Shown here in pieces: positions 1-16,451 of a stretch of 53,714 nt of DNA. The notes below the pieces were generated by a model, which made no database searches, was not told the DNA's origin, and worked only from the letters and a program-made list of their open reading frames with translations. Source of the stretch: Halococcus sediminicola (GTDB lineage: Archaea; Halobacteriota; Halobacteria; Halobacteriales; Halococcaceae); assembly GCF_000755245.1 (NCBI RefSeq), contig NZ_BBMP01000008.1, positions 1 to 53,714 of the forward strand, in the 5' to 3' direction. Every line of letters starts with the position of its first letter. Position 1 is the first letter of the stretch. A program made the translations under genes and the position numbers.

Positions 1-162
1 TCAGCTCTAGGTCATGACTGTGTTGGCTATTGTGTGTTTGGTCAAGATCCATGTGTTAGTTGTGCACTTAGAGTTGTGCGGATCTCCGGCTTCACGTAGA
101 TATGCATGTTTACGAGTGTATTTGACTAATGCATGGTCTTATTTACTACTCTTTTTTTTTTT
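1..162. other. Foreign-looking leader sequence, probably chimeric
   Basis: This stretch is clearly poorer in GC than the DNA after position 233, carries a 12-base T run at 151-162, and has no haloarchaeal-like coding frame. It directly abuts a sequencing adapter, so it was most likely joined to the genome during library preparation or assembly. Its source cannot be told from the sequence. Confidence 0.8.
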
Positions 163-232
163 AATGATACGGCGACCACCGAGATCTACACACTGCATAT
201 CGTCGGCAGCGTCAGATGTGTATAAGAGACAG
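163..232 (+). other. Illumina P5 / Nextera i5 sequencing adapter
   Basis: Positions 163-191 are the P5 flow-cell oligo, 192-199 read ACTGCATA (an i5 index of the Nextera set), 200-213 are the read-1 adapter start and 214-232 the 19-base Tn5 mosaic end. The parts are contiguous and in library order. This is contamination left in the contig, not biology; genome sequence resumes at 233. Any frame read through it yields spurious peptides. Confidence 0.98.
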
Positions 233-324
233 TCGATGCAGCACTCGATGCCGGCCCGACGCGCCCGTGCGTAGTCGTCGGCCGAGCGCGAGACCATGTG
301 CATGTGCGGGTCGATGATCTCCAT
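232..324 (-). CDS. TatD-family metal-dependent hydrolase, N-terminal fragment
   Basis: About 30 residues are readable, starting MEIIDPHMHMVSRSADDY. The D-P-H-x-H motif near the N-terminus is the first metal-ligand pair of TatD/amidohydrolase-fold enzymes. The rest of the gene is missing because the contig enters the adapter at 232, so this is an assembly truncation rather than a natural pseudogene. It diverges from the inositol-3-phosphate synthase gene. TatD-like proteins (EboB) occur in ebo clusters together with an alkaline-phosphatase-fold protein, which fits the next two genes. Confidence 0.8.
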
Positions 325-436
325 GCCGGCAGTTGTGGGCCGAACAAACTACTATGTACTGATTGTGCTATCGTCAGTTCACACTCCAATCGCTGTCGGG
401 ACGGTTGGCGCGCGGGAGTGCCGGAAGGCACGACTC

Positions 437-495
437 GCGCGAGGGATGAGCGGAGCGAATCGGTTGGGGAGGCATGTGGGCGGTGCGGTTCTCGT
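437..495 (+). repeat. Dispersed intergenic repeat, copy A
   Basis: Begins with GCGAGGGATGAG, continues with GAGCGAATCGGTTGGGGAGG and ends in a GTGCGGTT-rich tail. The same block recurs at 9399-9458 (same orientation) and 11049-11102 (reverse complement). All three copies are intergenic. This copy lies between the divergent TatD and inositol-3-phosphate synthase genes. Confidence 0.8.
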
Positions 496-554
496 TTGAG
501 TCGGGATTCGTCGCATTGGAGCCGGCTGCTGTACTGAGCGTGAGTTCTACTCTT

Positions 555-563
555 CAAAAATAT
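555..563 (+). promoter_or_regulatory. Candidate TATA box for the inositol-3-phosphate synthase operon
   Basis: The A-rich CAAAAATAT is the only AT-rich hexamer-scale site in the otherwise GC-rich spacer before the operon. It predicts a transcript start near 585-590 and therefore a leader of roughly 100 bases before the preferred start codon. Assigned by composition and position only. Confidence 0.35.
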
Positions 564-687
564 CCGACCGACAATCACAGCGCTCGATGCCCACATCGCA
601 AAGTAAGTGTGTCTCGGAACCCTTCTCTTAGAGGATGCAGCGACGGAGTTTCGCACCGACAGGGAAACAGGGGAGCGAATTACAGCC

Positions 688-1968
688 GTGCCAGAACGGG
701 AAGCCGAGCACCACGACAGTCAGCGGGTGGTCGGGGTGAGCGCGGGCACGACCGGCGTCTGGCTCGTTGGCGCGCGCGGGAACGTCGCCACGACGGCGAT
801 GATCGGCGCGCGTGCCATCGCCCGTGGCGCGGCCGACACGACGGGGATGGTCACCGAGCGCGCGCCGTGTACGGGCCTCGACCTTCCGGGAATCGACTCG
901 CTCGTCTTCGGTGGTCACGACGTCCAGGACGGCAGCGTCGTCGAGACGGCCGAGCGCCTCGCGGAGCGCAATGGTATTCCAGGCCCCACGACGCTAGATG
1001 CCGTCCGAGAGGATCTCGCCGCAATCGACGAACGCATCGAGACCGGCACGGCACGCAACTGCGGGCAGGCGGTCACGGAACTCGCCGACGGGGGCACCGA
1101 CGAATCGCTCTCGCTGCAGGCGATCGTCGGGGACATCCAGGACGATTACGACGCGTTCCGCAAGGAGAACGATCTGGAGCGAGTAGTTATCATCAACGTC
1201 GCCTCCTCCGAGCCGCTACCGGCCGATCCCGAGAAGTACGATTCCATCGAGGCCATCGAGCGCGCGCTCGACGAGGACGAGCCGCTGCCGGCGAGTTCGC
1301 TGTACGCTTACGCCGCGCTCGCCGACGGGCATCCGTTCGTGAACTTCACGCCGAACGCCGCGAACGCGCTCGGTGGACTGCGCGAGCTGGCCGAGCGCGA
1401 GGGCGTTCCGCACATGGGCAAGGACGGCAAGACGGGCGAGACGCTGATGAAGTCCGCGCTCGCGCCGATGTTCGCCGGGCGCAACCTCCGCGTGCGCTCG
1501 TGGGAGGGCCACAACATCCTCGGAAACAAAGACGGAAAAGTGCTCGAAGACGATGCGAACAAGGCTGGAAAGTTGGCGAGCAAGGGTGGCGTGCTCGATG
1601 GCATCCTCGACGAGGACCTCCACAACCGGGTCCGGATCGACTACACGCCCGCGCTCGGCGACTGGAAGACCGCATGGGACGACATCCGTTTTCGGGGATT
1701 CCTCGACACCGACATGAAACTCCAGTTCACCTGGGAAGGCTCCGATTCGGCGCTCGCCGCACCATTGATACTCGATCTCGCGCGATTGCTCGCGTTCGCC
1801 GACGAGCGGGGCGAGTCGGGATTGCAGCGCCACCTCGCCTCCTTTTTCAAAGCGCCGCTCGGCGTCGACGAACACGACCTCTCCAAACAGTTCGGGATGC
1901 TCGAAGAGTACGTCGAAGCGCACGCCGCACAGCCGAACGCGGTCGGCGCGGAGGGCGACGATGACTGA
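688..1968 (+). CDS. ino1: Inositol-3-phosphate synthase
   Basis: Converts glucose 6-phosphate to 1L-myo-inositol 3-phosphate by NAD-dependent oxidation, aldol cyclisation and reduction. The NAD-binding glycine motif TGVWLVGARGNVAT is near the N-terminus. The catalytic block (about residues 250-285 from this start) includes GKDGKTGETLMKSALAP with conserved lysines, followed by SWEGHNILGN. The length, about 426 residues, suits archaeal enzymes. The start is uncertain: GTG at 688 is used here, but GTG at 736 would put the glycine motif where short homologs begin, and the frame is open back to 607. The stop overlaps the next start by 8 bases, indicating coupled translation. Inositol phosphate could feed phospholipids or compatible solutes; the neighbouring TatD and phosphatase genes instead suggest an ebo-like role. 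Confidence 0.92.
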   Translation: MPEREAEHHDSQRVVGVSAGTTGVWLVGARGNVATTAMIGARAIARGAADTTGMVTERAPCTGLDLPGIDSLVFGGHDVQDGSVVETAERLAERNGIPGPTTLDAVREDLAAIDERIETGTARNCGQAVTELADGGTDESLSLQAIVGDIQDDYDAFRKENDLERVVIINVASSEPLPADPEKYDSIEAIERALDEDEPLPASSLYAYAALADGHPFVNFTPNAANALGGLRELAEREGVPHMGKDGKTGETLMKSALAPMFAGRNLRVRSWEGHNILGNKDGKVLEDDANKAGKLASKGGVLDGILDEDLHNRVRIDYTPALGDWKTAWDDIRFRGFLDTDMKLQFTWEGSDSALAAPLILDLARLLAFADERGESGLQRHLASFFKAPLGVDEHDLSKQFGMLEEYVEAHAAQPNAVGAEGDDD

Positions 1969-3313
1969 CGGCGACGCGGGGCGGGCGATCGTCCTCGACG
2001 TGATCGGGCTCGAACGCGAGCACGTCGAGAGGGGTCTCGCGCCGAACATCGCCGACCTCGTTGACGACGGCGCACGCGCTGACCTCCAGTCGCCGTTTCC
2101 AGCTGTGACGCTCCCCGTTCAGAGTACGCTCGCGACGGGCCAGTCGCCCGAAAACCACGGCGACGTGGCCAACGGCGAGTACGACAGGGGGAACGACACG
2201 GCGGCGCTCTGGGAGCGCGAGCGCGAGGACAGGAATCGCCTCTGGGAGAGTGCGAGCGAGGCCGGACTCACCACCGGAGTATTCTGTTTTCAGCATCTCA
2301 TCGGCACGACGGCGGACGTCGCGCTCACGCCCTCGCCCATCGAGGACGAGGACAACAACATCCTTGAGATGAACTGCTGGACGAATCCTGATGATTTCTA
2401 CGACGAACTCGAAGCCGAGTACGGCCACTTCCCGCTGCACACCTACTGGGGTCCCGGCGCGAACGAGGAGTCGACCGCGTGGATTCTCGACGCCGCCCGC
2501 GAGGCCATCGACCGCTACGATCCCGACCTCCTCTGGATCTACATCCCGTATCTCGATTACGCGGGGCTGGCTCACGGGGCGAGCAGCGACGAACTCCACG
2601 AGGCGATCGGTGTCGCCGACGAACTCGTCGGCGATTTCCTCGACTTCTTGCGCGAGGACGAGCGCTGGGGCGACACAGTAGTAAACGTCGTCAGCGAGTA
2701 CGGCTTCAACGACGTCGACACACCCGTGTTCCCGAACCGTGCGCTGCGCGAGGCGGGATTGCTCGCGGTCCAGGATGACGGCGAAGGTGGCGAGGAGATC
2801 GACCTGAAGAGTTCGGAAGCGTTCGCGCTGGTCGATCACCAGGTGGCCCACGTCTATGCCGACGAGGACGTCGTCGACGAGGCGCGCGAGGCACTCTCCG
2901 GGCTGGATGGCGTCGAGCGGGTACTCGACGAGAAAGGAAAAGAAGAGTACGGCGTCGCCCACCCGAACGCCGGCGAACTCGTCTGCGTCGCCGAGCCGTC
3001 GGGCTGGTTCCAGTATTACTGGTGGCACGACGACGCGAACGCGCCGTACTACGCCCGCGACATGGATATCCACGCGAAACCCGGCTTCGACCCCGTCGAG
3101 TTGTTCTTCGGCGACGAGGGGCTCGTCTCGCTCGATGCCTCGAAAGTCGGTGGCTCGCACGGCCGTGCCGACGTCGACGGGTTCTACGGGCTGGGCGGTC
3201 CGGCTGCCCCCGATTCGGTGCCCGACGACGTTGACGCCCGCGCGGTCGCGCCGACGCTGACCAATCTGCTCGGTGTCGACGTGGCGATGGAATTCGAGCG
3301 CGACGCGCTATAA
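1961..3313 (+). CDS. Alkaline-phosphatase-superfamily protein (nucleotide pyrophosphatase/EboF-like)
   Basis: A 450-residue cytoplasmic protein of the alkaline phosphatase fold; no signal peptide is seen. The N-terminal IVLDVIGL corresponds to the first metal-ligand strand, and SPFPAVTLPVQSTLATG carries the likely nucleophile threonine, as in nucleotide pyrophosphatase/phosphodiesterases. LDYAGLAHG matches the D-x-x-x-x-x-H ligand motif. The usual T/S-D-H-G ligand motif reads V-S-E-Y-G-F instead, so the second metal site may be altered or lost. It overlaps the inositol-3-phosphate synthase gene by 8 bases and converges on the sugar dehydrogenase gene. Likely substrate unknown; a phosphomonoester or diester of an inositol-derived precursor is inference. 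Confidence 0.8.
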   Translation: MTDGDAGRAIVLDVIGLEREHVERGLAPNIADLVDDGARADLQSPFPAVTLPVQSTLATGQSPENHGDVANGEYDRGNDTAALWEREREDRNRLWESASEAGLTTGVFCFQHLIGTTADVALTPSPIEDEDNNILEMNCWTNPDDFYDELEAEYGHFPLHTYWGPGANEESTAWILDAAREAIDRYDPDLLWIYIPYLDYAGLAHGASSDELHEAIGVADELVGDFLDFLREDERWGDTVVNVVSEYGFNDVDTPVFPNRALREAGLLAVQDDGEGGEEIDLKSSEAFALVDHQVAHVYADEDVVDEAREALSGLDGVERVLDEKGKEEYGVAHPNAGELVCVAEPSGWFQYYWWHDDANAPYYARDMDIHAKPGFDPVELFFGDEGLVSLDASKVGGSHGRADVDGFYGLGGPAAPDSVPDDVDARAVAPTLTNLLGVDVAMEFERDAL

Positions 3314-3323
3314 AAAGCGAAAT

Positions 3324-5516
3324 CTACTCTTTGCGCCCGGACAGCAGCCGGGCCGCACCGATCGTCAGCCCCGACAACGCCGCCAGAACGCCGAACCCGG
3401 GACCCGAATCGCTGCTCGTCCCGCCCGAGACACCGCTCTCGCCGGTCGTTTGCGCCGCTTCGGTCACCGTCCGTCCGGCCGTTTCCCGTGCAGTCGCCGG
3501 CTTTGTGGTAGCGGTCGATTCGCCGATGCCGGTCGTGCCGGGAGTTCCGTTCGCGGCGGCCGTGGCGTTCGTGGTGACTGTGGCATTTCCGGTGGTCGTG
3601 GCGTTCGTGGTGGCCGTGGCGTTCGCGGTCGTCGCCGAACCGTTTGGGGCGCTCGCGTCGCCGGTGGCGGTCCCGGTCCCCTGAGATCCTTTCGACGGGA
3701 CGATGCGGTGGACCGCGCCGGTCGCCTCGTTGCCCGGGTTCGCGGTCGTCAGCACGTAGAGCCGTCCCTCGTTGTCTCGGCCCAGCGCGAGGATGTAGCC
3801 GCCGACGAACCCGCTGTCGGTGTTCGCGATGGAGAGCTCCGCGACGTCCCAGAGACCCTCTTCGGCTGGCGTGGCCGCGAGCAGCGAACCCGTCGGGGTT
3901 TCGGTCTCCTGTGTCTTGCGGAAATCGCCGAAGACGTACTTTCCAGTGAGGGCCGGAATATCGTCGCGTCCGTAACTGTAGCCGCCGATGGCCGCCGACC
4001 CGACACCCTCACCTCCCTCGCTGTGTGGGTACTCGATGACCGGCGGGATGAGGCGCTCGCCGCCGCGGACGTCGGGGGGCAGTTTGCTCGGGCACTCCTC
4101 GGGCGGGTTGCGACTGCCCTCCGGCCCGGGTTTGAAACAGTGGGTTCCCTCGCGGACGTTCCAGCCGTAGTTCTTGTCCTTCTCGACGATGTCGATCTCC
4201 TCGAAGCCATTCTGGCCGACGTCCGAGGCGAACAGTTCCCCGTCGGAGAATCCCATCCGCCACGGGTTGCGAAAGCCCCACGCGAACTGCTCGTCCAACC
4301 CCTCTTTTCCCACGAGTGGGTTGTCGTCGGGAATCCCGTAGGCCTTGTCGCCGTCTCGACCGTCGACGTCGATGCGCAGGATCGATCCCAAGAGGTTCTC
4401 GGTGACGTCCTGCCCGTTGCCGCCCTCGTTGTCCTCGTACCAGTCGCTCACGTGACCGAGGTCGGTGTCGTGTGCGCCGCCGCCGTCGCCCATCGCCACG
4501 TAGAGGTAGCCGTCGTCGGGCCCGAAGACGATCGCACCGGCGTTGTGCGTGTCGTACGGCGACGGGACTTCGAGCACCGTCCGTTCCGAGTCCACGAGAC
4601 CGCTCGACCCGTCCTCGCTCGTCTCGAACTCGGCGAGGACTTCCGTGTGCGAGAACTCCTCGGGCGTGCCCTCCCGCGATGGCGCGCTGTAGCGCAGGTA
4701 GAACCTCCCGTTCTCCTGATAGTCGGGATGGAACGCCATTCCCAGCAGCCCCATCTCGCCGGTGATCTCGGTCAGTTCGTCGCTCACGTCGATGAACGGC
4801 TCCTCGTTCAGACTCCCCGACTCGTGAACGTACACTTGCCCGAGTCGGTCGACGACGAAGTATCGGCCGTTCTCGCCCGGCGGCACGCCGAAATCGAGCG
4901 GTGCGGTGAGCGTTCCCTCCGTGAGCGTCTCGATGCGTACCGTGGGTCCGTCGCCGAAGTACGACGAGGACCCGCCCTCCCCATCGTCGCTTTCGGTCGT
5001 GGTCGCCGTCTGTGTCTCCTCGCCGAACGAGATCGCGCCGTGCATCGAAGCGCTGTGTGGCTCGCAGACGTACTCGGCCATCGCCTCTTTGGCAGTGAAC
5101 TCGACGGTCTGGGTCGCGCCCTGCTCGCTCATCACCTCGGTGCGCTCCAGTACCTCGCCATCGCCGTCGAGCAGTGCGAAGTTGTGGCCCTGGCCGTCGA
5201 TGTTCTTCCAGACGACCCGATAGTCGGTGCCGGCGTCGAGGCGGAGGGTCGGGTTGCTCTCGCCGGCTATCGAGTCGGGTTTCCGACCCTGCCAGCCGGC
5301 GATTTCGCCACCGAGGCGGATCGTTTCGGGGTCGGACTGTGCACCGGCGAGACCGACTGCGCCGACGAACGCACCGGTCGCGGCGCTCGCACGGAGGAAT
5401 CGTCTGCGGGTCGTTGCGTGCCGGTCTGTCGGTGAGTTCGTGGTCATTGCGGTTGTGGGGTCGTCGGTCGTACGCTGCTTGTCGTCTCGCTGCGACGGCG
5501 AGTCATGATGGCTCAT
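3324..5516 (-). CDS. Secreted PQQ-dependent sugar dehydrogenase with N-terminal blue-copper domain (copy 1)
   Basis: A 730-residue exported protein. A Tat signal with TTRRRFL sits near residue 37. Residues about 75-170 form a cupredoxin-like domain with a full type-1 copper set: H in GHNFALLD, then C, H and M in CEPHSASM. The glucose/sorbosone dehydrogenase beta-propeller follows (GLLGMAFHPDY with the likely catalytic histidine, RIDVDGRDGDKAYGIP, WGFRNPWRM, NYGWNVREG). A Thr/Ala/Asn-rich linker leads to a PGF-CTERM tail (GPGFGVLAALSGL, then R-K-E), expected to be processed by archaeosortase A and lipid-anchored. The ATG at 5516 overlaps the upstream stop as ATGA, which supports this start; an internal ATG at 5447 would give a more usual Tat n-region. 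Probable role: periplasmic-side aldose oxidation with electrons passed to copper. Confidence 0.9.
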   Translation of the reverse strand: MSHHDSPSQRDDKQRTTDDPTTAMTTNSPTDRHATTRRRFLRASAATGAFVGAVGLAGAQSDPETIRLGGEIAGWQGRKPDSIAGESNPTLRLDAGTDYRVVWKNIDGQGHNFALLDGDGEVLERTEVMSEQGATQTVEFTAKEAMAEYVCEPHSASMHGAISFGEETQTATTTESDDGEGGSSSYFGDGPTVRIETLTEGTLTAPLDFGVPPGENGRYFVVDRLGQVYVHESGSLNEEPFIDVSDELTEITGEMGLLGMAFHPDYQENGRFYLRYSAPSREGTPEEFSHTEVLAEFETSEDGSSGLVDSERTVLEVPSPYDTHNAGAIVFGPDDGYLYVAMGDGGGAHDTDLGHVSDWYEDNEGGNGQDVTENLLGSILRIDVDGRDGDKAYGIPDDNPLVGKEGLDEQFAWGFRNPWRMGFSDGELFASDVGQNGFEEIDIVEKDKNYGWNVREGTHCFKPGPEGSRNPPEECPSKLPPDVRGGERLIPPVIEYPHSEGGEGVGSAAIGGYSYGRDDIPALTGKYVFGDFRKTQETETPTGSLLAATPAEEGLWDVAELSIANTDSGFVGGYILALGRDNEGRLYVLTTANPGNEATGAVHRIVPSKGSQGTGTATGDASAPNGSATTANATATTNATTTGNATVTTNATAAANGTPGTTGIGESTATTKPATARETAGRTVTEAAQTTGESGVSGGTSSDSGPGFGVLAALSGLTIGAARLLSGRKE

Positions 5517-7552
5517 TGCTCCTCGCCACCCAACAGGCGGGCAGCACCGAGGGCAAGTCCGGCAAGCCCGGCGAGAATCCCGAACCCGGGACCGTCGCCG
5601 CTCACGATGCCGCCGCTCTCACCACTGCGCGCCGTGCCGGTGCTGTTGGTCGTCTCGCTCGCCGTTTCGGTCGCCGTCCGCGTCGCGGGCGGCGTCGATG
5701 TCGGTTCGGGCGTCGCGGTCGCCGTCGGCGGTCGGGCTGGCGTCTCGGTGCTCGCGGTCTCGCGTGCCTCGGCCTCGGGTGGCCGCAGGCGATGGACCGC
5801 GCCGGTCTCGCCCTTGACGCCGAGGTTGTCGGTCGTCAGCGCGTAGAGTTCGCCGTCGTTGTCGCGGGCGACACAGAGGAGGTAGGCACCGAGTTCCCCG
5901 TTCTCACCGTTCGCGATCGAAACCTCCTCGACCGACCACGAATCACCTTCGACGGGCGTCGCGGCGAACAGCGAACCGCGCGGTTTGCCGTCCTTGCTGT
6001 AGTCGCCGAAGACGTACTTCCCCTGGAGATCGGGGATCGTCGCGTTCTCGTAGATGTAGCCGCCGATGACGGCGACGCCGACGCCCTTCGTCTCGTAGGT
6101 GTGTGGATACTGGATGACGGGGTCGATGAGCGGTTCGCCGCCGCGCACGTTCGCCGGCGTGTTGGTGGGACACTGGGAACGGTAGGGGTCTGCGCCCTTG
6201 GTGGCGACGAAACACTGCCCGCCCTCGCGAACGTTCCAGCCGTAGTTGCCGCCCTTCCTGACGACATCGATCTCCTCGTACCGGCGCTGGCCGACGTCGG
6301 CGGCGATCAGCGTCTCGCCCGAGAAACCGATGCGCCACGGGTTGCGAAAGCCCCATGCGTAGTGTTCGTCGAGACCCGCCTTCCCCACGAGCGGGTTGTC
6401 CTCGGGGATCCCGTAGGCCTTGTCGCCGTCTCGACCGTCGACGTCGATGCGCAGGATCGACCCCATCAGGTTCTCCTCGATGTCCTGGCCGTTGCCGCCG
6501 AGGTTCGCGCCGTACCAGTCGTTTGGCTGTTTCGAGGATTTGAGCGCGCCGCCGCCGTTGCCGATGCCGATATAGAGGTAGTCGTCGGGACCGAAGACGA
6601 TCGCGCCGCCGTTGTGTGTGTAGTACGGCGAGGGGATTTCGAGCACCGTCCGTTCGGTGTCGGGCAGCGCTTTCGTACCCTCCTCGTTGATCTCGAACTC
6701 CGAGATGACCTGCGTATGGGTGAAGTTCTCGGGCGTTCCGGGGCGCGATTTGGCGCTGTAGTGGACGTAGAATTTACTGTTTTCCTGAAAATTCGGATGG
6801 AAGGCCAGCCCGAGCAGGCCGCGCTCGTCGATGGTCTTGATCTCGGGGAGGTTGTCGAAGTCGATGAGCTGATCGCGCACATCGAGGAACACGTCGCCGC
6901 CGCTGCCGTCGGCTCCGTACCGACGGATGACGCCGATCTGGTCGATGATGAAAAACTCCCCGCGCTCGCCGGGCGGGACTTCGAGACCGAGCGGGGCGGT
7001 GAGATCGCCGTCGACGACGGTGTCGGTTCTGATGGACGGTCCTGTGGGGAAGAATCCTTTCGGCTCGTCGGACTCGTCCTCGGTCGTCGTCTCGGTCTTC
7101 GCGCCGCCGTTCGAGAAGGTGATGTCGCCGCGCATCGAGTTGAGGTGGGCCTGACAGACGTACTCGTCCATCGCCTCGGTCGCGGTGAATTCGAGGGTCT
7201 GGGTTTCACCTTCGTTCGACATGTACTCGGTGCGCTGGAGGACGGCGTCCTCGCCGTCGAGCAGCGCGACGTTGTGCTGTGCGCCGTCGATGTTCTTCCA
7301 CGTCAGTCGGTAGGTCGTGCCGATTTCGAGTTCGAGCGTTGGGTTGATGGTGCCCTGGATCCCTGACGGTTCGCGCCCGACCCAGCCGGTCGTCTCGCCG
7401 CCGAGACTGATCTCCTGTGGCTGGGATTGGGCCTGTACACCGGTGAAGCTGCCGACGCCAGCGAGACCGGTCACGCCAGCGGCGGCGGTGGCGGCGAGAA
7501 AGCGCCGGCGCGAGGGGGCAGCGGGGTCGGTGTCGTGTATTCCATTCGTCAT
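5513..7552 (-). CDS. Secreted PQQ-dependent sugar dehydrogenase with N-terminal blue-copper domain (copy 2)
   Basis: A 679-residue paralog of the downstream gene with the same order of parts: Tat signal (SRRRFLAATAAAG at about 14-26), cupredoxin-like domain with ligands H (QHNVALLD), C, H and M (CQAHLNSM), GSDH propeller (RGLLGLAFHPNF, RIDVDGRDGDKAYGIP, NYGWNVREG), a Thr/Pro-rich linker and the tail GPGFGILAGLAGLALGAARL. It is the promoter-proximal gene of a two-gene operon; its TGA overlaps the next ATG. An AT-rich site around 7628-7640 is a possible promoter. Residue identity with copy 1 is high around the active site but low in the linker, so the pair is an old duplication. Substrate specificity cannot be read from sequence. 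Confidence 0.9.
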   Translation of the reverse strand: MTNGIHDTDPAAPSRRRFLAATAAAGVTGLAGVGSFTGVQAQSQPQEISLGGETTGWVGREPSGIQGTINPTLELEIGTTYRLTWKNIDGAQHNVALLDGEDAVLQRTEYMSNEGETQTLEFTATEAMDEYVCQAHLNSMRGDITFSNGGAKTETTTEDESDEPKGFFPTGPSIRTDTVVDGDLTAPLGLEVPPGERGEFFIIDQIGVIRRYGADGSGGDVFLDVRDQLIDFDNLPEIKTIDERGLLGLAFHPNFQENSKFYVHYSAKSRPGTPENFTHTQVISEFEINEEGTKALPDTERTVLEIPSPYYTHNGGAIVFGPDDYLYIGIGNGGGALKSSKQPNDWYGANLGGNGQDIEENLMGSILRIDVDGRDGDKAYGIPEDNPLVGKAGLDEHYAWGFRNPWRIGFSGETLIAADVGQRRYEEIDVVRKGGNYGWNVREGGQCFVATKGADPYRSQCPTNTPANVRGGEPLIDPVIQYPHTYETKGVGVAVIGGYIYENATIPDLQGKYVFGDYSKDGKPRGSLFAATPVEGDSWSVEEVSIANGENGELGAYLLCVARDNDGELYALTTDNLGVKGETGAVHRLRPPEAEARETASTETPARPPTATATPEPTSTPPATRTATETASETTNSTGTARSGESGGIVSGDGPGFGILAGLAGLALGAARLLGGEEQ

Positions 7553-7709
7553 GTATTGATCGAACCACTCCGCGGTTCCGACGGGGCGTTCGTCGGTGGT
7601 GGAGACTACGAGAAACCGGGGTCGGTATTCACTTATGGGTTGTGATACACTCAGCAGTGAGCGAAAATCGACCGACAGAACCCAGTGAGTCCTCTCGTCT
7701 CGACCCGCG

Positions 7710-9296
7710 TCAGTCGTGACGGAACGCGCGCTGACCGGTGTGGGCCATCGCGATCCCCGCTTCGTCGGCGGCCGCGATCACGTCATCGTCGTTCACGGAG
7801 CCGCCGGGTTGGACGACCGCCTCGATGCCCGCGTCGACGGCCGCCTCGATGCCGTCGGGGAACGGGAAGAAGGCGTCGGAGGCCATCACCGCGCCCGCTG
7901 CCGATTTCCCCTCGGCGTGCTCGTCGGCCTTCATCGCCGCGAGTCGTACGGCATCGACCCGCGAGACCTGTCCCATGCCGATGCCTACAGTCTCGGTGCC
8001 GTCGGCGAAGACGATGGCGTTCGATTTGACGTGTTTGATGACCTGCCACGCGAAACACATCGTTTCCAACTGCGCGTCGCTCGGTTCGCGTTCGGTGACG
8101 ATCTCTAGGTCCGCCGGTGTGATCACCTGTTCGTCACGCTCTTGGATCAGTCGTCCGCCGGCGAGCGGTTTTTCGGCGAACTGCGCCGCGTCGGCGTCGA
8201 ACTCCTCGATGTCGAGCACCCGGAGGTTGTCCTTCTCGCGCAGCACCGCGAGCGCGTCCTCGGTGTAGCCCGGCGCGAGGACGACCTCCTTGAACGACTC
8301 GACGATCTGCTCGGCGGTCGCCTCGTCGCACTCGCGGTTCAGCGCGACGATCCCCCCGAAGGCGCTCATCGGGTCGGTAGCGAGCGCATGCTCGTAGGCC
8401 GCCGCAAGTGTGTCGGCGGTCGCACAGCCCGCGGGATTGGTGTGCTTTATCACTGCGGCCGCCGGCTCGTCGAATTCTCTGACTAAGCCGAGCGCCCCGT
8501 CGGCGTCGTTATAATTGTTGTACGAGAGGTTTTTGGCACCGGGGTTCAGCTGTGGCGCATCGACGACGTTGGCCCCCGTGTCCGCGTCGGTGTAGAGCGC
8601 GGCCGACTGGTGTGGGTTCTCGCCATACCTGAGCTCCGCCGCGCGCTCGCTTCCCTGCACGCGCCGGGGCGGGAAATCACCGCGCTCGTCGTCCGTGACC
8701 CGTATCTCGCGTTCGTCGCCCTTGTCCTCGATGGTCAGTTTCCCTTCGGCGAACAGCCTGACGGCGCGCGGATAGGCTACGAACTCGGCCTCGTGAAGCA
8801 CGCGCTCCTTGAGTGACTCTTGATCGTCGTCCGCATAGACGGCGACCGGCTCCTGGGTGACGATCGGGCCGGCGTCGACCTCTTCGGAAACGAGATGGAC
8901 CGTGCAGCCGGTGACGTCGACGCCGGCATCGAGGACCTGCTCGTGGGCATCCATGCCTGGGAACGCGGGCAGCAGCGACGGATGAACGTTGAACGCTGGC
9001 GGCGCGCGCTCGACGAACTCGTCGGTGAGCACGCGCATGTAGCCGTCGAGACAGACCAGTTCGGCGTCGTACTCGGCGAGTCTGTCGAGCAGTCGTCGTT
9101 CGTGGGTCGCGCGCGATTCGTTCTCCTCGGGTTCGACGACTTCGGTGGGGATTCCGCGCTCGGCGGCCGCGTCGAGCACCGGCGCGTCGGCGTCGTTCGT
9201 CAGAACGACGCTCAGTGCCGCGCCACCGGGCGCGCGGTCGGCGATCCGAACGAGGTTGCGGCCGCGATTGCCCGCCAGTCCCGCGATCGGTGTCAT
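7710..9296 (-). CDS. purH: Fused PurN-type formyltransferase and PurH AICAR transformylase
   Basis: Purine biosynthesis. Residues 1 to about 190 are a GART/PurN-like formyltransferase domain (MTPIAGLAGNRGRN, VHPSLLPAFPG, DVTGCTVHLVSEEVDAG, with the catalytic N-H-D set partly visible as FNVHPSLL and DAG). From about residue 205 onward the AICAR transformylase part of PurH follows (LRYGENPHQSAALY, IKHTNPAGCA, SDAFFPFPDGIEAA). The IMP cyclohydrolase domain of bacterial PurH is absent, as expected for haloarchaea, where a separate PurO does that step. The ATG at 9296 gives the natural N-terminus; the frame is open for 33 further codons upstream without conserved sequence. purB lies upstream on the same strand, separated by a 198-base spacer holding repeat copy B. 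Confidence 0.9.
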   Translation of the reverse strand: MTPIAGLAGNRGRNLVRIADRAPGGAALSVVLTNDADAPVLDAAAERGIPTEVVEPEENESRATHERRLLDRLAEYDAELVCLDGYMRVLTDEFVERAPPAFNVHPSLLPAFPGMDAHEQVLDAGVDVTGCTVHLVSEEVDAGPIVTQEPVAVYADDDQESLKERVLHEAEFVAYPRAVRLFAEGKLTIEDKGDEREIRVTDDERGDFPPRRVQGSERAAELRYGENPHQSAALYTDADTGANVVDAPQLNPGAKNLSYNNYNDADGALGLVREFDEPAAAVIKHTNPAGCATADTLAAAYEHALATDPMSAFGGIVALNRECDEATAEQIVESFKEVVLAPGYTEDALAVLREKDNLRVLDIEEFDADAAQFAEKPLAGGRLIQERDEQVITPADLEIVTEREPSDAQLETMCFAWQVIKHVKSNAIVFADGTETVGIGMGQVSRVDAVRLAAMKADEHAEGKSAAGAVMASDAFFPFPDGIEAAVDAGIEAVVQPGGSVNDDDVIAAADEAGIAMAHTGQRAFRHD

Positions 9297-9398
9297 GGCT
9301 GAAGGGGATGCGCCGTGCGCAAAGTGCGTTCGGATTCGAGAGCGGTGGCTGCGGGCCATCGTTCGATGAAATTCGCGAGAAATTCGACGCCCCACACG

Positions 9399-9458
9399 GC
9401 GCGAGGGATGAGTGAGCGAATCGGTTAGGGAGGTATGTGGACTGTGCGGTTTTTGTAG
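9399..9458 (+). repeat. Dispersed intergenic repeat, copy B
   Basis: Nearly identical to copy A at 437-495 over the whole length, with one fewer G and A after GATGAG and a GTGCGGTTTTTG end. It lies in the spacer between purB and purH. The T run at its end could help termination on the plus strand, but neither flanking gene is on that strand. Confidence 0.8.
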
Positions 9459-9494
9459 CCCCTAAGAGTGGGTTCGGCCACTGACGAACAGCTC

Positions 9495-10877
9495 TCACTC
9501 CGCCGAATCGGCCAGCTCTGCCGCCAGCCCGGTGTAGCCGGCGGGCGTGAGCGCACGTAGCTCCGCACGGGTCGCCTCGTTCACGTCGAGGTCGGCGAAC
9601 AGCTCGCGGAAATCGTCGAGATCGGTGCGTCGTCCGCGGGTAAGTTCCTTCACCCGCTCGTAGGCGTCGGTGTGACCCTCGCGGCGGAGCACAGTTTGAA
9701 CCGCTTCGCCGATGACTTCGGGGTTGTCCTCCAACTCCTCGCGCATCACTCGCTCGTTCGGGACGACCTTCGAGAGGCCGGCTTGCGTCTTCCGGTAGCC
9801 GATGAGGCTGTGAGCCAGCGCCGCGCCCACGTTCCGCTTGACCGTCGAATCAGAGAGGTCGCGCTGGAGGCGCGAGGTGGTGAGGGTCTCGGCGAGAAAG
9901 GAGAGATCGCTATTGGCTTTCGAGAGGTTGCCCTCGCTGTTCTCGAAGTCGATCGGGTTGACCTTGTGCGGCATCGTCGAACTTCCCGTCTCGCCCGCGT
10001 CGCTCTCCTGACCGAGATAGCCATCGGAGACGTAGCGCCACATGTCACGGTCGGCGTCGAGCAAGATTGCGTTCGCGCCCCGGAGCGCGTCGAACAGCGC
10101 AGCGAGGTCGTCACACGGGTTGATCTGTGTGACGGGTTCGACGTGGACGAGTCCGAGCGAGTTGACGAACTCCTCGGCGAACGCCCGCCAATCGACATCG
10201 GGATAGGCGGCGTGGTGAGCGGCGTAGGTCCCGCTCGCGCCGGCGAGCTTGCCCGCGAGATCGCCGGCGGCGCTCGCGATGCGCTCGATCGCTCTCTCCA
10301 GCCGGCCGGCATAGACGGCCGTCTCCTTGCCGAACGTCGTCGGCGTCGCCGGCTGGCCGTGCGTGCGCGCCAGCATCGGGGTGTCGCCGTGCTCGCGCGC
10401 CATCGCCCCGAACGCTTCCCGAATCACATCGAATTCGGGAACCAGCACTTCCTCGACGGCGGGCTTGAGCAGCAATCGGCGCGCGAGGTTGTTGACATCC
10501 TCGCTCGTCAGCCCGAAGTGAACCCACGGCGCGACGTCCGGGTCGGGAAGCCCATCGCGGACGAAATACTCGACGGCCTTCACGTCGTGGTTGGTTGCCG
10601 AATGCTCCGCGGTTCCCTCGGTCTCGATGCGCTTGATCCTGGCTGCGTCTTCCTTGGAAAAATCCTCGTAGAGCGCTCTGAGAACCGCTCGGTCGTCGGC
10701 ATCGATCACGAGCGGGGTGGCGTCGAGGTCGGCGAGCGCGACGAGATACTCGACCTCGACGCGGACGCGAGCGCGCAGCAGGGCCGCCTCGCTCGCGTAC
10801 TCGACGAGCGGTTCGGTGTAGCGTGCGTACCGGCCATCGAGCGGCGACACGGACGAAAGCGGACCGCGGTCTGTCAT
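9495..10877 (-). CDS. purB: Adenylosuccinate lyase
   Basis: Cleaves fumarate from SAICAR and from adenylosuccinate in purine synthesis. The 460-residue length is standard. The fumarase/aspartase-superfamily signature SSTMPHKVNPIDFENSEGN is at about residues 296-314, with the flexible-loop serine in GSSTMPHK. The N-terminal LSSVSPLDGRYARYTEPL is typical of PurB, and the TxHxQ-like motif TSEDVNN / ARTHGQPATPTTFGKE is present. ATG at 10877 is preferred because homologous sequence starts within a few residues. It lies just upstream of purH on the same strand, so the two purine genes are adjacent though probably separately initiated. Confidence 0.95.
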   Translation of the reverse strand: MTDRGPLSSVSPLDGRYARYTEPLVEYASEAALLRARVRVEVEYLVALADLDATPLVIDADDRAVLRALYEDFSKEDAARIKRIETEGTAEHSATNHDVKAVEYFVRDGLPDPDVAPWVHFGLTSEDVNNLARRLLLKPAVEEVLVPEFDVIREAFGAMAREHGDTPMLARTHGQPATPTTFGKETAVYAGRLERAIERIASAAGDLAGKLAGASGTYAAHHAAYPDVDWRAFAEEFVNSLGLVHVEPVTQINPCDDLAALFDALRGANAILLDADRDMWRYVSDGYLGQESDAGETGSSTMPHKVNPIDFENSEGNLSKANSDLSFLAETLTTSRLQRDLSDSTVKRNVGAALAHSLIGYRKTQAGLSKVVPNERVMREELEDNPEVIGEAVQTVLRREGHTDAYERVKELTRGRRTDLDDFRELFADLDVNEATRAELRALTPAGYTGLAAELADSAE

Positions 10878-11048
10878 GCCTACGACTGACCCGAGTCCGG
10901 TGAAATGGGTGTCGAATCGCCAATCGCTCTCACGTGTCCGATTCGATTTTGGGTACGATGTCGTTCTTCCGAGTTACCAAATTCAGTCTCGATCAGCAGA
11001 GCGATCGTGACCGCGATACCTGACGACGATGATTCCTGCAACCGCGCC

Positions 11049-11102
11049 CTCATCCTCCCCAACCGATTCGCTCGTCGCTACACTCCTCGCTCATCCCTCG
11101 CA
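11049..11102 (-). repeat. Dispersed intergenic repeat, copy C
   Basis: On the minus strand it reads GCGAGGGATGAGCG, then about 15 extra bases, then GAGCGAATCGGTTGGGGAGG. The inner block matches copies A and B. The 307-base gap between purB and the ferritin-like gene holds this repeat and no gene that can be supported. Confidence 0.75.
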
Positions 11103-11184
11103 TAATGTCCGCGCTCGGTGCTCGCTTGGCTCGCACACGAGCGCGAGCGCGCGCCATCGGTGGGAAAACAGCCGTCGCGCCGCG

Positions 11185-11646
11185 TCAGTCGTCGTATTCT
11201 TTCCGGTAGCCTTCGAACTCGGTGAGATGCTCCTCCTCGTCGGCGAGCAGTTCCGTAGCGAGGTCCTCGGTCACGGGGTCGTCGGCTTCCTCGGCGACAT
11301 CGATGAGTTCGCGGTAGGTCTCGACAGCGCCCTTCTCGGCCTCGATGACGCCGTCGATGACGGCGAGCGTGTCGGTCGGGTCTGCGGGCGGCTGGAGGCT
11401 CTCTTGGCCCATCTCCAGTTCGAAGGAACCCTTCGGCTGACCCCCTAACTGAACGATGCGCTCGCCGAGTTCCTCGGCGTGACCGAGTTCCTCTTGGACG
11501 TCCGCACTCAGGCTGTCGGCGACCTCCTCGGCGGCGACGCCAGCGAGCGCGATGGCGTCGGTCTGGTAGTTGACCACCGTTTCGAACTCGTCGTTGCGTG
11601 CGTCGTGGAGCAGGTCGAGCACCTGCTCGTCACCCTCCATGCTCAT
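11185..11646 (-). CDS. Ferritin-like (rubrerythrin-fold) protein
   Basis: A 153-residue, all-helical, very acidic protein. Two E-x-x-H motifs (EELGHAEEL at about 52-60 and DEEEHLTEFEGY at about 137-148) plus spaced glutamates (NDEFETVVNY near 18-27, VIEAEKGAVETY near 103-114) match the di-iron four-helix bundle of ferritin-like proteins. Possible jobs are iron handling or peroxide reduction; the exact subfamily is not clear. ATG at 11646 and 11640 are both possible. It is downstream of the lysine operon on the same strand with only a 24-base gap, so it might be read through from that operon. Confidence 0.75.
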   Translation of the reverse strand: MSMEGDEQVLDLLHDARNDEFETVVNYQTDAIALAGVAAEEVADSLSADVQEELGHAEELGERIVQLGGQPKGSFELEMGQESLQPPADPTDTLAVIDGVIEAEKGAVETYRELIDVAEEADDPVTEDLATELLADEEEHLTEFEGYRKEYDD

Positions 11647-11670
11647 GGGTCGCCTTCGACCGCCGCGTTC

Positions 11671-12765
11671 TTAAGTCCCAGTCTCCCGGAAGAGCGACGC
11701 GAGCACGTCGCCGAGCAGTTCGCCCGCGCGCTCGACCTCTGGAAGACGGACGTACTCGCGCTCGGCGTGGGCCACCGGACCGTCCGCGTCGGCGAGGACA
11801 CCCGGCCCGAATACGACTGTGGGGGCCTCGGGGGCGAAATACGACGCCTCGGTCGCGGCGGTGAACGGACGTGTCTCACACTCAGCATTCCGAAACGCTT
11901 CCACTACCGCCGAATCGGACGGTGTCTCGAAGGCCTCCAAGAACGGCGTCTCGCGCTCGGTCAGCGCGAACGACACGGGCGAGTCCAGCCGTTCGCGGAG
12001 GTATTCGTCGAGCGCACGCTCGAACTCCATCGCCGTCTCGGGCGGCACGCTCCGCCGGTCGACGACGATGTCGCAGCCGGCGGGCACCCGATTGGTCGCC
12101 GTTCCACCCTCGACGACCGTCGGGGTGAGCGTCGGCTCGCCGAGGTCGGGGTGGGCCGCGAGCGTCTCGGAGTGCTCGCCGAATTCGGCGAGCGCTCCGA
12201 TGACGGGCGCAGCCGATTCGATGGCATTCTCGCCAGTGTGCGGTTCGGCGGCGTGTGCGCTCTCGCCGTCGATCGTCACCGCGCCCTCGAAACGCCCCTT
12301 TCCAGCGGTACAGACGTCCAGCCCTGTGGGTTCGCCGACGATGACCGCATCGCCGCGCGCTCCGTCGAGGCCGAGTCCGGGAACGAGCGCCGCCGCCCCC
12401 GTCGAGTAGGTCTCCTCGTCCGGCGTCACCGCGAGCGTGAGCCGTCCCCGATCGGGCTCGCAGTCGAGAAACGCCGCCATCATCGCCGCGAGTGGTCCCT
12501 TTGCATCGCAGGCCCCCCGGCCGTGGAGTACGTCATCGTCCCGCTCGGCGGGCACGTGCGGCACGACCGTATCGAGATGGGTGTTCAGGACGATGTGCGG
12601 CCCGCTGCTGCCGCGCGTCGCCAGCACGCTTCCCCCGTCGTCGACGGTCGGCTCGACGCCGTGTTCGGCGAGTCGGTCGCACAGCAGCGCGCGCATCGGG
12701 TCGATGTCCTCGTGTGAGGGAGTCTCGACGGCCGTTTCGAGGAACGCGATCGGATCGAATCCCAT
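11671..12765 (-). CDS. dapE: M20 peptidase-family N-succinyl-LL-diaminopimelate desuccinylase
   Basis: A 364-residue zinc hydrolase of the M20 family. Metal ligands are visible as LNTHLDTV (H, D), GRGACDAKGPLAAM (D) and TPDEETYS (catalytic E and ligand E). It removes succinate from N-succinyl-LL-DAP to give LL-DAP. M20 enzymes act on many amide substrates, so the assignment rests on its place as the last gene of the lysine operon. The ATG at 12765 shares one base with the dapF stop (TGATG), which fixes the start; the longer open frame upstream is inside dapF. Confidence 0.85.
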   Translation of the reverse strand: MGFDPIAFLETAVETPSHEDIDPMRALLCDRLAEHGVEPTVDDGGSVLATRGSSGPHIVLNTHLDTVVPHVPAERDDDVLHGRGACDAKGPLAAMMAAFLDCEPDRGRLTLAVTPDEETYSTGAAALVPGLGLDGARGDAVIVGEPTGLDVCTAGKGRFEGAVTIDGESAHAAEPHTGENAIESAAPVIGALAEFGEHSETLAAHPDLGEPTLTPTVVEGGTATNRVPAGCDIVVDRRSVPPETAMEFERALDEYLRERLDSPVSFALTERETPFLEAFETPSDSAVVEAFRNAECETRPFTAATEASYFAPEAPTVVFGPGVLADADGPVAHAEREYVRLPEVERAGELLGDVLASLFRETGT

Positions 12766-13622
12766 CAGTCGCCCGCGGCCTCGTCGGTTTCGACAGTCGG
12801 CGACGGCCCTCTCGAAACGCGCCCCGCGAACTCCCGTTCCGTGGGGCCGGCGAGCGTCGCACCGCGGTCGGTAAACCGAACCGCTAACCGGCCGCCCGGC
12901 GGATGCACGTCGATGGAGTCGTGCTCGGTGAGATCGAGTTCGCGCGCGACCGCCGCGACTGCCACCGCGCCGGTGCCACACGAGCGCGTCTCGCCCTCGA
13001 CGCCGCGCTCGTAGGTGCGCTGGTCGAAGCCATCCCCACGAGGACTGGCGAGCGTGACGTTCGCGCCACGCGGGAAGCGGTCGGCGTGGCGTACCGGCGG
13101 CGCGAGCGTTGCGAGGTCGGTGGTCGCAACGTCGTCGACGAACGCCACGGCGTGGGGCACGCCCGTATCGACTGCCGTCACGGACAGGTCCCCGACCGAC
13201 CCCTCGACCAGTGACTCGTCGCCGGCGAGCGGCACGGCTTCGGGCGCGAACGTCGGACTTCCCATCTCGATGGTCACCTCGTCACCGACGGTCGCGCGCC
13301 GGGTGCCCGCCTGCGTGTCGACCATCACAGTCTCGGTATCGGTGCGCTCGGCCGCCCACGCCGCCGCACAGCGCGCGCCGTTGCCGCACATCGGCGCGGT
13401 CGAGCCGTCGGGCTGGACGAGCGTCATCACCACGCGCGGCGAGGCATAGCCCGTTTCGAGCGCGAGGAAGAGCACGCCGTCGGCCCCCGTCCGCTCGCCG
13501 ACCGCGAGCCCCGTCTCGCCGTCACAGAACTCGATCGCGAGCCGCCGCCGGTCGGCGACGGGTTCGCTCGCGTCGATGATGAAGAAGTCGTTGCCAGTCC
13601 CGTGGTATTTCTCGACGTTCAT
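12765..13622 (-). CDS. dapF: Diaminopimelate epimerase
   Basis: Interconverts LL- and meso-DAP by a two-cysteine, cofactor-free mechanism. Both catalytic cysteines are visible: MCGNGARCAAAW at about residue 75 and RSCGTGAVAVAAVA at about residue 215. The N-terminus MNVEKYHGTGNDFFIID is the classic DapF start. The ATG at 13622 overlaps the lysA stop as ATGA, confirming it over the upstream in-frame ATG. Length 285 residues is normal. Confidence 0.95.
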   Translation of the reverse strand: MNVEKYHGTGNDFFIIDASEPVADRRRLAIEFCDGETGLAVGERTGADGVLFLALETGYASPRVVMTLVQPDGSTAPMCGNGARCAAAWAAERTDTETVMVDTQAGTRRATVGDEVTIEMGSPTFAPEAVPLAGDESLVEGSVGDLSVTAVDTGVPHAVAFVDDVATTDLATLAPPVRHADRFPRGANVTLASPRGDGFDQRTYERGVEGETRSCGTGAVAVAAVARELDLTEHDSIDVHPPGGRLAVRFTDRGATLAGPTEREFAGRVSRGPSPTVETDEAAGD

Positions 13623-14866
13623 GATTCGAGCCTCCCGAGGTCCGCAACCGTCTCGCGGCGCACGCACAGTTCGGAATCCGCTCCATCGAGCGCGACGACC
13701 GCCGGCCGGGGCCGGGCGTTGTAGGTGTTCGCCATCTCGTAGCCGTACGCGCCGGCGTTGCCGATTCCCAGCAGATTGCCGCGCTCCGGCGCGGGTAGCT
13801 CACGGTCGCGCCCGAGCACGTCGCTCGACTCGCAGACTGGCCCGGTGACGGTCGCTGCGACCGTTTCTCGCCCCTCGGCATCCGGCACGAGCGAGCGGAT
13901 TTCGTGGAAAGCGTCGTAGAGCGCCGGGCGGGCGAGGGTGGTCATCCCGGCATCGACGCCGACCACGGTCGTCTCGGGTGTCGGCTTCACGGTGTTCACA
14001 CGGGCAAGGAGCACGCCCGCGTCCGCGACGCAATACCGACCCGGCTCGATGCCCAGTCGGGCGTCCGCAGTGAACGCCTCGCGGGTCGCGCGAGCCAAAG
14101 CGTGGATATCGAGCGGCGGTTCGGATTCACGATAGGGAACCCCGAACCCGCCGCCGACGCTCACGGCGTCGAGAGCGATGCCCGCATCGGCGATGTCGCC
14201 AGCGAGTTCGCTCACCCGCTCGACCAGCGCGCGGTGGGCCGCGAGGTCCTCGGCGTCGAGGATGCCGCTGCCGGCGTGGGCGTGGATTCCCGCGACCGTG
14301 AATCCCCTCTCGTCGGCGTCGACGACCGCCTCCCGCGCCCGTCCGGCTGGAATCCCGAACTTCGGGTCGGTGCCCGTCCGCACCTTCGCGTGGTGACCCG
14401 CGCCGATAGCGGGATTAACGCGCACATAGACTGTGCCCGACCAGCCGCGCTCTTCGAGCCTGTCGAGCGTGTCGAGCGCGCCGATTGTGATGGTGATCTC
14501 GTTGTCGTCGGCATATTCGACCACTCTGTCGAGGTCCCTCGCCGGTGGATTGACGGCCGTGTAGCGCACGTCGGAAAACTCCGCCTCGCCCGCACGGACG
14601 ACCTCGCCCGCCGAAGCGCATTCGGCCCCGAAACCCGTCTCGGCAATCGTTTCAAGTACCGACTTTCGGGAGTTCGCCTTCACCGCGTAGTCGATATCGG
14701 CGTCCGGGAACGCCTCTCGGAGGCGTGCGGCGTTCTCGCGTACGCGCTCGACGTCGACGACGTACAGCGGCGTCTCGTACTCATCGGCGAGGTCGCGCAG
14801 GCGCGCAGCCGACCAGTCGCCGAGCCGTCGAACTGGTGGGTTCGTCGCTACGGCAGCACTCGTCAT
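13619..14866 (-). CDS. lysA: Diaminopimelate decarboxylase
   Basis: PLP enzyme (alanine-racemase fold type III) that converts meso-DAP to lysine. The PLP lysine is in DYAVKANSRKS (about residue 60), the phosphate-binding glycine region in VSVGGGFGVPY, and the substrate-side cysteine region in VTGPVCESSDVLGRD. The start ATG at 14866 overlaps the dapD stop as ATGA. Its 415-residue length matches the family. All catalytic landmarks are intact. Confidence 0.95.
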   Translation of the reverse strand: MTSAAVATNPPVRRLGDWSAARLRDLADEYETPLYVVDVERVRENAARLREAFPDADIDYAVKANSRKSVLETIAETGFGAECASAGEVVRAGEAEFSDVRYTAVNPPARDLDRVVEYADDNEITITIGALDTLDRLEERGWSGTVYVRVNPAIGAGHHAKVRTGTDPKFGIPAGRAREAVVDADERGFTVAGIHAHAGSGILDAEDLAAHRALVERVSELAGDIADAGIALDAVSVGGGFGVPYRESEPPLDIHALARATREAFTADARLGIEPGRYCVADAGVLLARVNTVKPTPETTVVGVDAGMTTLARPALYDAFHEIRSLVPDAEGRETVAATVTGPVCESSDVLGRDRELPAPERGNLLGIGNAGAYGYEMANTYNARPRPAVVALDGADSELCVRRETVADLGRLES

Positions 14867-15690
14867 CGAAGCGCCTCCTCGCGCTCGGTCGCCTCCAGCG
14901 TTCTGTCCTCGACGGCCGTCGCCACCACCGCCGGCTTGTACGCCCCGCCGTCGAAGAGGTCGTGCTCGCCAATCGAGGACTCGACGAAGCGGGTGAACGC
15001 GCGACGCTCCGGTGGCAGATGGCCGTAGACGACCTCCTCATCGACGAGGTCGTAGACCGGAATCCGCGGCGTGAGCAGCGTGTTCTCGCCGACCACCGAG
15101 TCGTGGCCGACGACGAACCCCGAGGTAACGCGACAGCCAGCACCCAACGAGACGCCCTCTTCGACGATCACGGGCGTGTTCTCGACGGGTTCGAGCACGC
15201 CGCCGATAAGTGTGTTCGCACCCAGTTTGACGTCCGCGCCGACCTGCGCACACGACCCGATCGTGTCACAGGAATCGACGAGTGTGCCGTCGCCGACGTG
15301 TGCGCCCGCGTTGACGAAGCTCGGACTCATCATGATCGCGTCGTCGCCGACGTACGCGCCGCGCCGCACGACCGTCCCGTCGGGCGTATTTCTGGTACCG
15401 CGCTCGCCGAGCTCACCGGTGGAACGGAGCGGAAGCACGTCGTGATAAGCCACGCCGCCGTACTCTCTCCGTTGGGTTTCGCGCAGACTGAAATTGAGCA
15501 GGATGCCCTGCTTGACCCACTCGTTGGCCACCCATCCGTCGCTATCCTGCTCGGCAGCACGCACCTCGCCCGCTTCGAGCGCGTCGAGGAATTCGTCGAG
15601 CGTCGCGCGCTCGTCCGTACCGGCGTCGCTCGTCGTCAATCCATCCTCCGAACGCTCCCACAGACTCTCGATATCGGACTGGAGACTCAT
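14863..15690 (-). CDS. dapD: Tetrahydrodipicolinate N-succinyltransferase
   Basis: A 275-residue acyltransferase with a left-handed beta-helix of hexapeptide repeats from about residue 100 to 215 (for example VGDDAIMMSPSFVNAGAHVG). It transfers succinyl from succinyl-CoA to tetrahydrodipicolinate, committing the pathway to the succinylase branch. The start overlaps the dapB stop as ATGA, and the stop overlaps lysA likewise. Presence of DapD and DapE together shows that the succinylase variant is used, not the dehydrogenase or direct aminotransferase variant. Confidence 0.93.
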   Translation of the reverse strand: MSLQSDIESLWERSEDGLTTSDAGTDERATLDEFLDALEAGEVRAAEQDSDGWVANEWVKQGILLNFSLRETQRREYGGVAYHDVLPLRSTGELGERGTRNTPDGTVVRRGAYVGDDAIMMSPSFVNAGAHVGDGTLVDSCDTIGSCAQVGADVKLGANTLIGGVLEPVENTPVIVEEGVSLGAGCRVTSGFVVGHDSVVGENTLLTPRIPVYDLVDEEVVYGHLPPERRAFTRFVESSIGEHDLFDGGAYKPAVVATAVEDRTLEATEREEALR

Positions 15691-16451
15691 GCGAGCACCT
15701 CCTCGAACTCGTAACGTCCGGGGTCGCGCCCGGCGAGCCAGATCGCCGCATCGAGCGCGCCCGAGGCGAACACTCCTCGACTTTCTGCGCGATGGGTGAA
15801 CGTGAGCACCTCGTCGTTGCCCGCAAAGAGCACCTCGTGTTCGCCACGGATGCCACCCGCGCGGCGGACGTGAACGCCGATCTCGTCGTCGGCACGTGGC
15901 TGGTCACCCTCGCGGCCGTAGGTTCGGTCGTGTTCCCGTTCGCTCGCCGCGTCGATACCGTCGAGCAGCGTCGCCGCCGTCCCGCTCGGTGCGTCACGCT
16001 TGCGATTGTGATGAGTTTCGGTCATCTCGATGTCGTAGTCCGAAAGCGTCCCCGTGACGTCGGCGAGTGCCTCGCCAAGCGCGTGGACCCCCTGCGAGAA
16101 GTTCGTCGCCCACAGCAGGGGGACCCGCTCGGCGCTCTCGCGGAGCGCCGTGCGTTCGTCTGCGTCGAAGCCCGTGGTTCCGGTGACGAAGCTGACGCCC
16201 GCCTCCGCACAGGCCGCGGCGTACTCAGTAGTCGAGGCGGGACCGGTGAAATCGACTACCGCGTCGGGGGTGTGCTCGGCGAGCAGCGTGGGCAGGTCGG
16301 CCGCCGCGCGCACCTGCTGGCCGGCGACGCGCTCGTCGTCGGGCGAGCGATTGACCGCGAAACGCACGTCCACATCCTCGCGGTCGGCGGCCGTCTCCAC
16401 TACTGTCGTTCCCATCGTGCCCGTTGCACCCGTGACGCCGACTGCCGTCAC
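15687..16451 (-). CDS. dapB: 4-hydroxy-tetrahydrodipicolinate reductase
   Basis: NAD(P)H-dependent reductase of the DAP pathway. The nucleotide-binding motif VGVTGATGTMG is at the N-terminus, and the substrate motif ETHHNRKRDAPSGTA (about 150-165) with the catalytic histidine and lysine region is intact. Length 254 is typical. Its ATG overlaps the dapA stop as ATGA. Confidence 0.95.
   Translation of the reverse strand: MTAVGVTGATGTMGTTVVETAADREDVDVRFAVNRSPDDERVAGQQVRAAADLPTLLAEHTPDAVVDFTGPASTTEYAAACAEAGVSFVTGTTGFDADERTALRESAERVPLLWATNFSQGVHALGEALADVTGTLSDYDIEMTETHHNRKRDAPSGTAATLLDGIDAASEREHDRTYGREGDQPRADDEIGVHVRRAGGIRGEHEVLFAGNDEVLTFTHRAESRGVFASGALDAAIWLAGRDPGRYEFEEVLA

Follow-up and report, generated by a model that had tools for sequence, protein, structure and literature searches.

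The ebo module is widespread, and its presumed product is a lipid-linked cyclic sugar alcohol. In the canonical ebo clusters read on plasmids of Azospirillum, Mycetohabitans, Aureibacter, Deinococcus, Ketogulonicigenium and Salipiger the cyclase is EboD ('3-dehydroquinate synthase'), and inositol-3-phosphate synthase (INO1) is absent. In Streptomyces the cluster runs INO1, SCO3242 prenyltransferase, sugar isomerase, EboA, TatD, EboE and phosphatase and lacks EboD, and by local HMM search clusters of Embleya, Nonomuraea and Gemmatirosa are similar to this INO1-type form. Directly upstream of the INO1-type cluster of Streptomyces camelliae lies a ScyD/ScyE-family protein (L046:2096-3298), a family that takes its name from scytonemin genes. 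On a planctomycete contig (L019:880-4518) an EboD/dehydroquinate-synthase-like ORF, INO1 and a TIM barrel stand side by side, and both cyclase types may coexist there. The product proposed for ebo is an isoprenoid-cyclitol (PMC5133447), and in Nostoc the ebo genes are required for export of a scytonemin precursor, for which a cyclitol-lipid carrier was proposed (PMC6282210). No report of ebo in archaea or of INO1 in ebo was found in the literature searched, most subscription papers lying outside that search.

In the 53,714-nucleotide stretch of Halococcus sediminicola DNA analysed here (contig C8; the window), the initial annotation had seen at the contig end a partial ebo-like locus of a TatD hydrolase, INO1 and an alkaline-phosphatase-fold protein, with INO1 in the cyclase place. 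Positions 1-232 of the window are an artefact and its first genomic base is 233 (Table 1). The adapter is made up of P5 (AATGATACGGCGACCACCGAGATCTACAC), an 8-bp index, TCGTCGGCAGCGTC and the mosaic end (AGATGTGTATAAGAGACAG), the last base of which is 232; the exact matches comprise 29 bp of P5 at 163 and 19 bp of mosaic end at 214. Adapter and non-genomic sequence were also seen at the end of contig C1 (L005, about 18024-18159), and the ORFs called within the adapter-bearing ends of both contigs are artefacts. A search of the same genome for TatD gave matches at the extreme ends of contigs C26 and C1. C26 terminates within TatD and overlaps the window from base 233 by 9 bp (TCGATGCAG), 9 bp being the length of the Tn5 target site. 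In alignment with Halococcus thailandensis (L012), C26 covered positions 1-7463 and the window, starting from its base 233, covered 7455-16593, each with ~85-86% identity. The overlap and this collinear placement indicate that C26 and the window contig are probably neighbours, contig joins being read throughout from overlap and synteny. On C26 the genes run TatD-TIM1-UbiA-TIM2, closely packed: the part of TatD missing from the window, one UbiA protein and a pair of xylose-isomerase-like TIM barrels. The contig thereby supplies the UbiA homologue and the sugar-isomerase-like genes that had been predicted to lie past the contig end. The full haloarchaeal cluster has six genes, with TIM2-UbiA-TIM1-TatD divergent from INO1-phosphatase, and half of it lies at the window end.

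Table 1. Features at the start of the window
Feature	Position	Strand	Remarks
Non-genomic stretch outside adapter	1..162	.	5' of complete P5 adapter; Halococcus alignment begins only at 233
Nextera P5 adapter (P5, 8-bp index, read-1 sequence, Tn5 mosaic end); assembly artefact	163..232	+	exact matches
EboB-like TatD-family gene, 5' end, about 30 codons	233..324	-	remainder on C26, L004:17537-18253 -
Intergenic region between divergent TatD and INO1 operons	325..735	.	divergent layout kept in most haloarchaeal clusters
Inositol-3-phosphate synthase (INO1)	736..1968	+	PF07994 + PF01658; frame open from 607, start codon uncertain
EboF-like type I phosphodiesterase / alkaline-phosphatase-fold enzyme	1961..3313	+	PF01663, E 3.7e-48

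The assignment of the first complete gene as INO1 held: both Pfam domains scored over their cut-offs (PF07994, E 1.5e-46; PF01658, E 1e-32), the closest solved protein was the Archaeoglobus INO1 1u1i (E 1.9e-93, full-length alignment), and at the positions where the 3qvw/3qvx chains have alanine substituted for lysine the window protein keeps lysine. It therefore has both domains and the catalytic lysines of INO1. In a tree, haloarchaeal INO1 formed one clade and bacterial ebo INO1 fell outside it. For the TatD hydrolase (PF01026) the family was named correctly, its 30 residues matching without a difference the N-terminus encoded by an intact TatD-family gene on C1 of the same genome, but the window contains no more of it than some 30 codons (324-233, minus strand), a piece that gave no Pfam match when searched alone. 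In an alignment with bacterial EboB the motif EPAFWxG was present in 42 of 44 TatD sequences, and it was not in the other TatD-like protein of the genome (L001). The TatD protein belongs to the ebo subgroup of TatD-like metallo-hydrolases, the EboB of the ebo operon (PMC5133447). An ordinary DNase was considered and rejected; the metal site is complete, yet the family residues group with EboB. The alkaline-phosphatase-fold protein was likewise recognised correctly, and it shares the residues SEYG, DHQxAHxY and KPGxDPxExF with bacterial EboF. SEYG was found in 40 of 43 aligned phosphatases, at a place where solved relatives carry SDHG, and the phosphodiesterase paralogue of the genome itself (L010) has SDHG and misses the shared EboF residues, placing the window protein as a phosphodiesterase of the ebo subgroup, EboF (PMC5133447). 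A structure prediction for the phosphatase from a 7-sequence alignment reached a mean pLDDT of 40 and was left out of the evidence.

The best NCBIfam model for the UbiA protein was EboC (NF035940; 178 bits, E 2e-52), followed by the SCO3242-family prenyltransferase (166 bits); the curated EboC cut-off is 250, and in all haloarchaea searched the score lay under it. In the UbiA tree the haloarchaeal proteins formed one clade (98/97), which grouped with bacterial ebo UbiA and apart from four UbiA paralogues of the genome itself; support for this grouping was moderate (92/84) and the outgroup branches were long. Tested against EboE (NF035939), a long xylose-isomerase-like TIM barrel that had been expected past the contig end together with EboA, TIM1 scored 29.6 and TIM2 23.8 bits for a cut-off of 250; both barrels matched sugar epimerase/isomerase and inosose-dehydratase models. 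EboA did not turn up either, EboA_domain (NF035938) scoring above cut-off in 0 of 116 Halobacteria and giving no match in the cluster loci. Searched with bacterial EboD, a sugar phosphate cyclase related to dehydroquinate synthase, 20 haloarchaeal loci had no such ORF and had INO1 instead. Since EboA, EboD and EboE were each tested and fell short, we rejected a classical strict ebo operon and filed the cluster as an INO1-type ebo-like variant.

The same genome holds a second, diverged copy of the cluster (L005:14416-16345 and L011), split between C1 (TatD, TIM1, UbiA and TIM2, the reading frame of the last interrupted by apparent frameshifts) and C9 (INO1 and phosphatase). One TatD base, C in the window and T in C1 and C9, favours the pairs C8+C26 and C9+C1. 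The TatD of the second copy is almost identical to that of the first despite the divergence of the rest, which suggests gene conversion at TatD between the two copies and would account for the assembly break. Genes for secreted-type PQQ/GSDH beta-propeller dehydrogenases flank both copies (window 3324-5516 and 5513-7552, both on the minus strand; L005:7594-14285); they make up four of the nine in the genome, and among haloarchaeal clusters a sizeable minority has such genes as neighbours. Several clusters adjoin BMP-type sugar/nucleoside ABC transporter genes (L005:1-4627, L033:1-3953, L016:11275-15052).

The distribution of the cluster was followed in genomes of species representatives. Among 116 Halobacteria, INO1 and the EboC-type UbiA occurred in the identical 10 genomes; among 391 Halobacteria, INO1 was found in 52, EboC-type UbiA in 54 and both in 49 (Fisher p about 1e-52, p values ignoring shared ancestry). 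At genus level, 18 of 86 genera had both, with one discordant each way, and several genera mixed positive and negative species, INO1 and UbiA having mostly been gained or lost together. In 44 of the 49 genomes with both, the distance between the two genes was 1.4-3.2 kb, in agreement with the gene maps, so that clustering, a feature of the ebo operon, extends to these loci; they were on separate contigs in the source genome, G255 and G327, and far apart in G020 and G249. Nearly all of about 35 haloarchaeal loci read directly had the same gene set; gene content was also taken from plasmid annotations of Halocatena, Natronococcus, Haladaptatus and Halobaculum, and UbiA was found in every intact cluster read. 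The initial annotation had held that an ebo-like locus would be contradicted if the neighbours of INO1 orthologues in other haloarchaea included no UbiA or ebo-type genes; both adjoin INO1 there. Across 294 genomes of the phylum an EboC-type match was seen in 5, every one in the same order. Every gene singly belongs to a common superfamily, and unrelated housekeeping genes could have been grouped by chance at a contig end; we rejected this reading, the probability of which is negligible, as it is refuted by the conservation of a gene set that is kept across 18 genera and is common to actinobacterial and Gemmatirosa clusters. The cluster is almost certainly a real, conserved, ebo-related unit.

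Three genomes had INO1 only: in G262 the rest of the cluster is there, truncated at a contig end, and in G208 and G383 INO1 has no cluster around it. The same holds for Halomarina, where it lies amid glycosyltransferases. Five genomes with UbiA only keep the other cluster genes, INO1 being absent in three (cleanly missing from L056, L058 and L060) and an N-terminal remnant in two (L057:6398-6508, L059:6050-6268). INO1 can therefore be lost from the cluster, which means that INO1 is dispensable or that inositol then comes from another source. Haloferax volcanii, the INO1 gene of which is HVO_B0213 (PMC8305020), scores for the EboC family. One reading extends to the cluster what is assumed for this gene: INO1 would just provide inositol-phosphate for archaetidylinositol-type polar lipids, its neighbours being incidental. 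In a 2021 review HVO_B0213 appears among genes for polar-lipid headgroups, haloarchaea have been reported to contain inositol lipids (PMC8305020), including one tentative phosphatidylinositol (PMC10704169), and INO1 without the cluster in G208, G383 and Halomarina fits such a role. However, INO1 is present in just 52 of 391 Halobacteria, in 49 of these 52 with an EboC-type UbiA, and its adjacency to UbiA is kept across 18 genera. This narrow distribution and the tie to EboC-type UbiA, evidence from outside Haloferax, favour a role within the cluster over supply of polar lipids, which we consider unlikely.

On balance we lean towards the cluster being an INO1-type ebo variant that makes a prenylated inositol-derived lipid, a prenylated-cyclitol pathway. 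The sequences show which genes are present, that they are conserved and occur together, and to which families they are related; each enzymatic step, the order of the steps, the product and any carrier or export function are inferred. INO1, in the place that EboD holds as sugar-phosphate cyclase in canonical ebo clusters, would cyclise glucose-6-phosphate to inositol-phosphate, and the EboF-like enzyme would take off the phosphate or cut a phosphodiester. Reshaping of the cyclitol would fall to the EboB-like hydrolase and the xylose-isomerase-like TIM barrels, and the membrane UbiA/EboC-like enzyme would attach a geranylgeranyl-type chain to it, so that the product would be a membrane-bound isoprenoid-cyclitol. 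Against this pathway stand the absence of EboA and EboD, the scores of EboE and UbiA under their cut-offs, the loss of INO1 from five clusters and the occurrence of INO1 alone in G208, G383 and Halomarina.

The matches of the TIM barrels to epimerase/isomerase and inosose-dehydratase models would also suit IolE/IolI-like enzymes of an operon for sugar or inositol breakdown, with UbiA as a passenger and with sugar ABC transporters and PQQ dehydrogenases nearby, and BMP-type ABC transporter and GSDH-type dehydrogenase genes do lie beside several clusters. Yet INO1 produces inositol-phosphate and does not degrade it, UbiA is in every intact cluster read and has relatives in bacterial ebo clusters, and the flanking transporter and dehydrogenase genes differ by lineage whereas the six cluster genes do not, leaving breakdown quite unlikely. 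By analogy with the role proposed for ebo in scytonemin synthesis, the cluster might provide a cyclitol-lipid carrier that exports an aromatic or other precursor, in line with the need for ebo genes in precursor export in Nostoc (PMC6282210) and with the secreted-type GSDH genes next to some clusters. However, no candidate cargo or transporter is conserved beside the cluster, and EboA, required in Nostoc, is absent from it. To our knowledge haloarchaea have no scytonemin genes, which we count against such a carrier, and we regard precursor export as improbable.

Returning to the prenylated-cyclitol pathway, we suggest tentatively that some haloarchaea may make a new prenylated inositol-derived membrane lipid, carrier or protective, by a dedicated pathway, and that the cyclitol step of ebo may have been swapped between the unrelated cyclases EboD and INO1, a cyclitol being the common ebo chemistry. 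An archaeal ebo cluster with a cyclase of known product, inositol phosphate, would narrow ebo chemistry towards inositol-type cyclitols. It also gives the scattered haloarchaeal INO1 a partner and a testable role, for which Haloferax volcanii is a tractable archaeon.

As a single enzyme, INO1 of the window compares with that of Archaeoglobus fulgidus (1u1i), a full-length homologue with the same catalytic lysines, a match that by itself says nothing of an ebo-like cluster in that organism. With the eboA-F operon of Bacteroidetes, cyanobacteria and eustigmatophyte plastids (PMC5133447, PMC6282210) the haloarchaeal cluster shares an EboB-like TatD, an EboC-like UbiA, an EboF-like phosphatase and a xylose-isomerase-like TIM barrel, all clustered; it differs in having INO1 for EboD, no EboA, two shorter TIM barrels for EboE and an archaeal host. 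The plasmid cluster of Gemmatirosa kalamazoonensis (L036) likewise combines INO1 with TatD, phosphatase, UbiA and a TIM barrel and has no EboA by local HMM, but is bacterial, with an EboE-type protein on the opposite strand and one short TIM barrel. The INO1-type clusters of Streptomyces (NBC_01592, S. camelliae), Embleya and Nonomuraea have EboA, a true EboE and an SCO3242-type UbiA in one operon, against two divergent operons in haloarchaea. They are alike in INO1, which takes the cyclase place there as it does here, in a UbiA-family prenyltransferase, TatD, phosphatase and sugar-isomerase TIM barrel and in lacking EboD, and the haloarchaeal proteins are 46% (INO1), 44% (TatD, against that of Streptomyces ebo) and 40% (phosphatase) identical to their actinobacterial counterparts. 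The haloarchaeal form is without EboA and a scored EboE, but by gene content it is nearest to the INO1-type clusters of bacteria.
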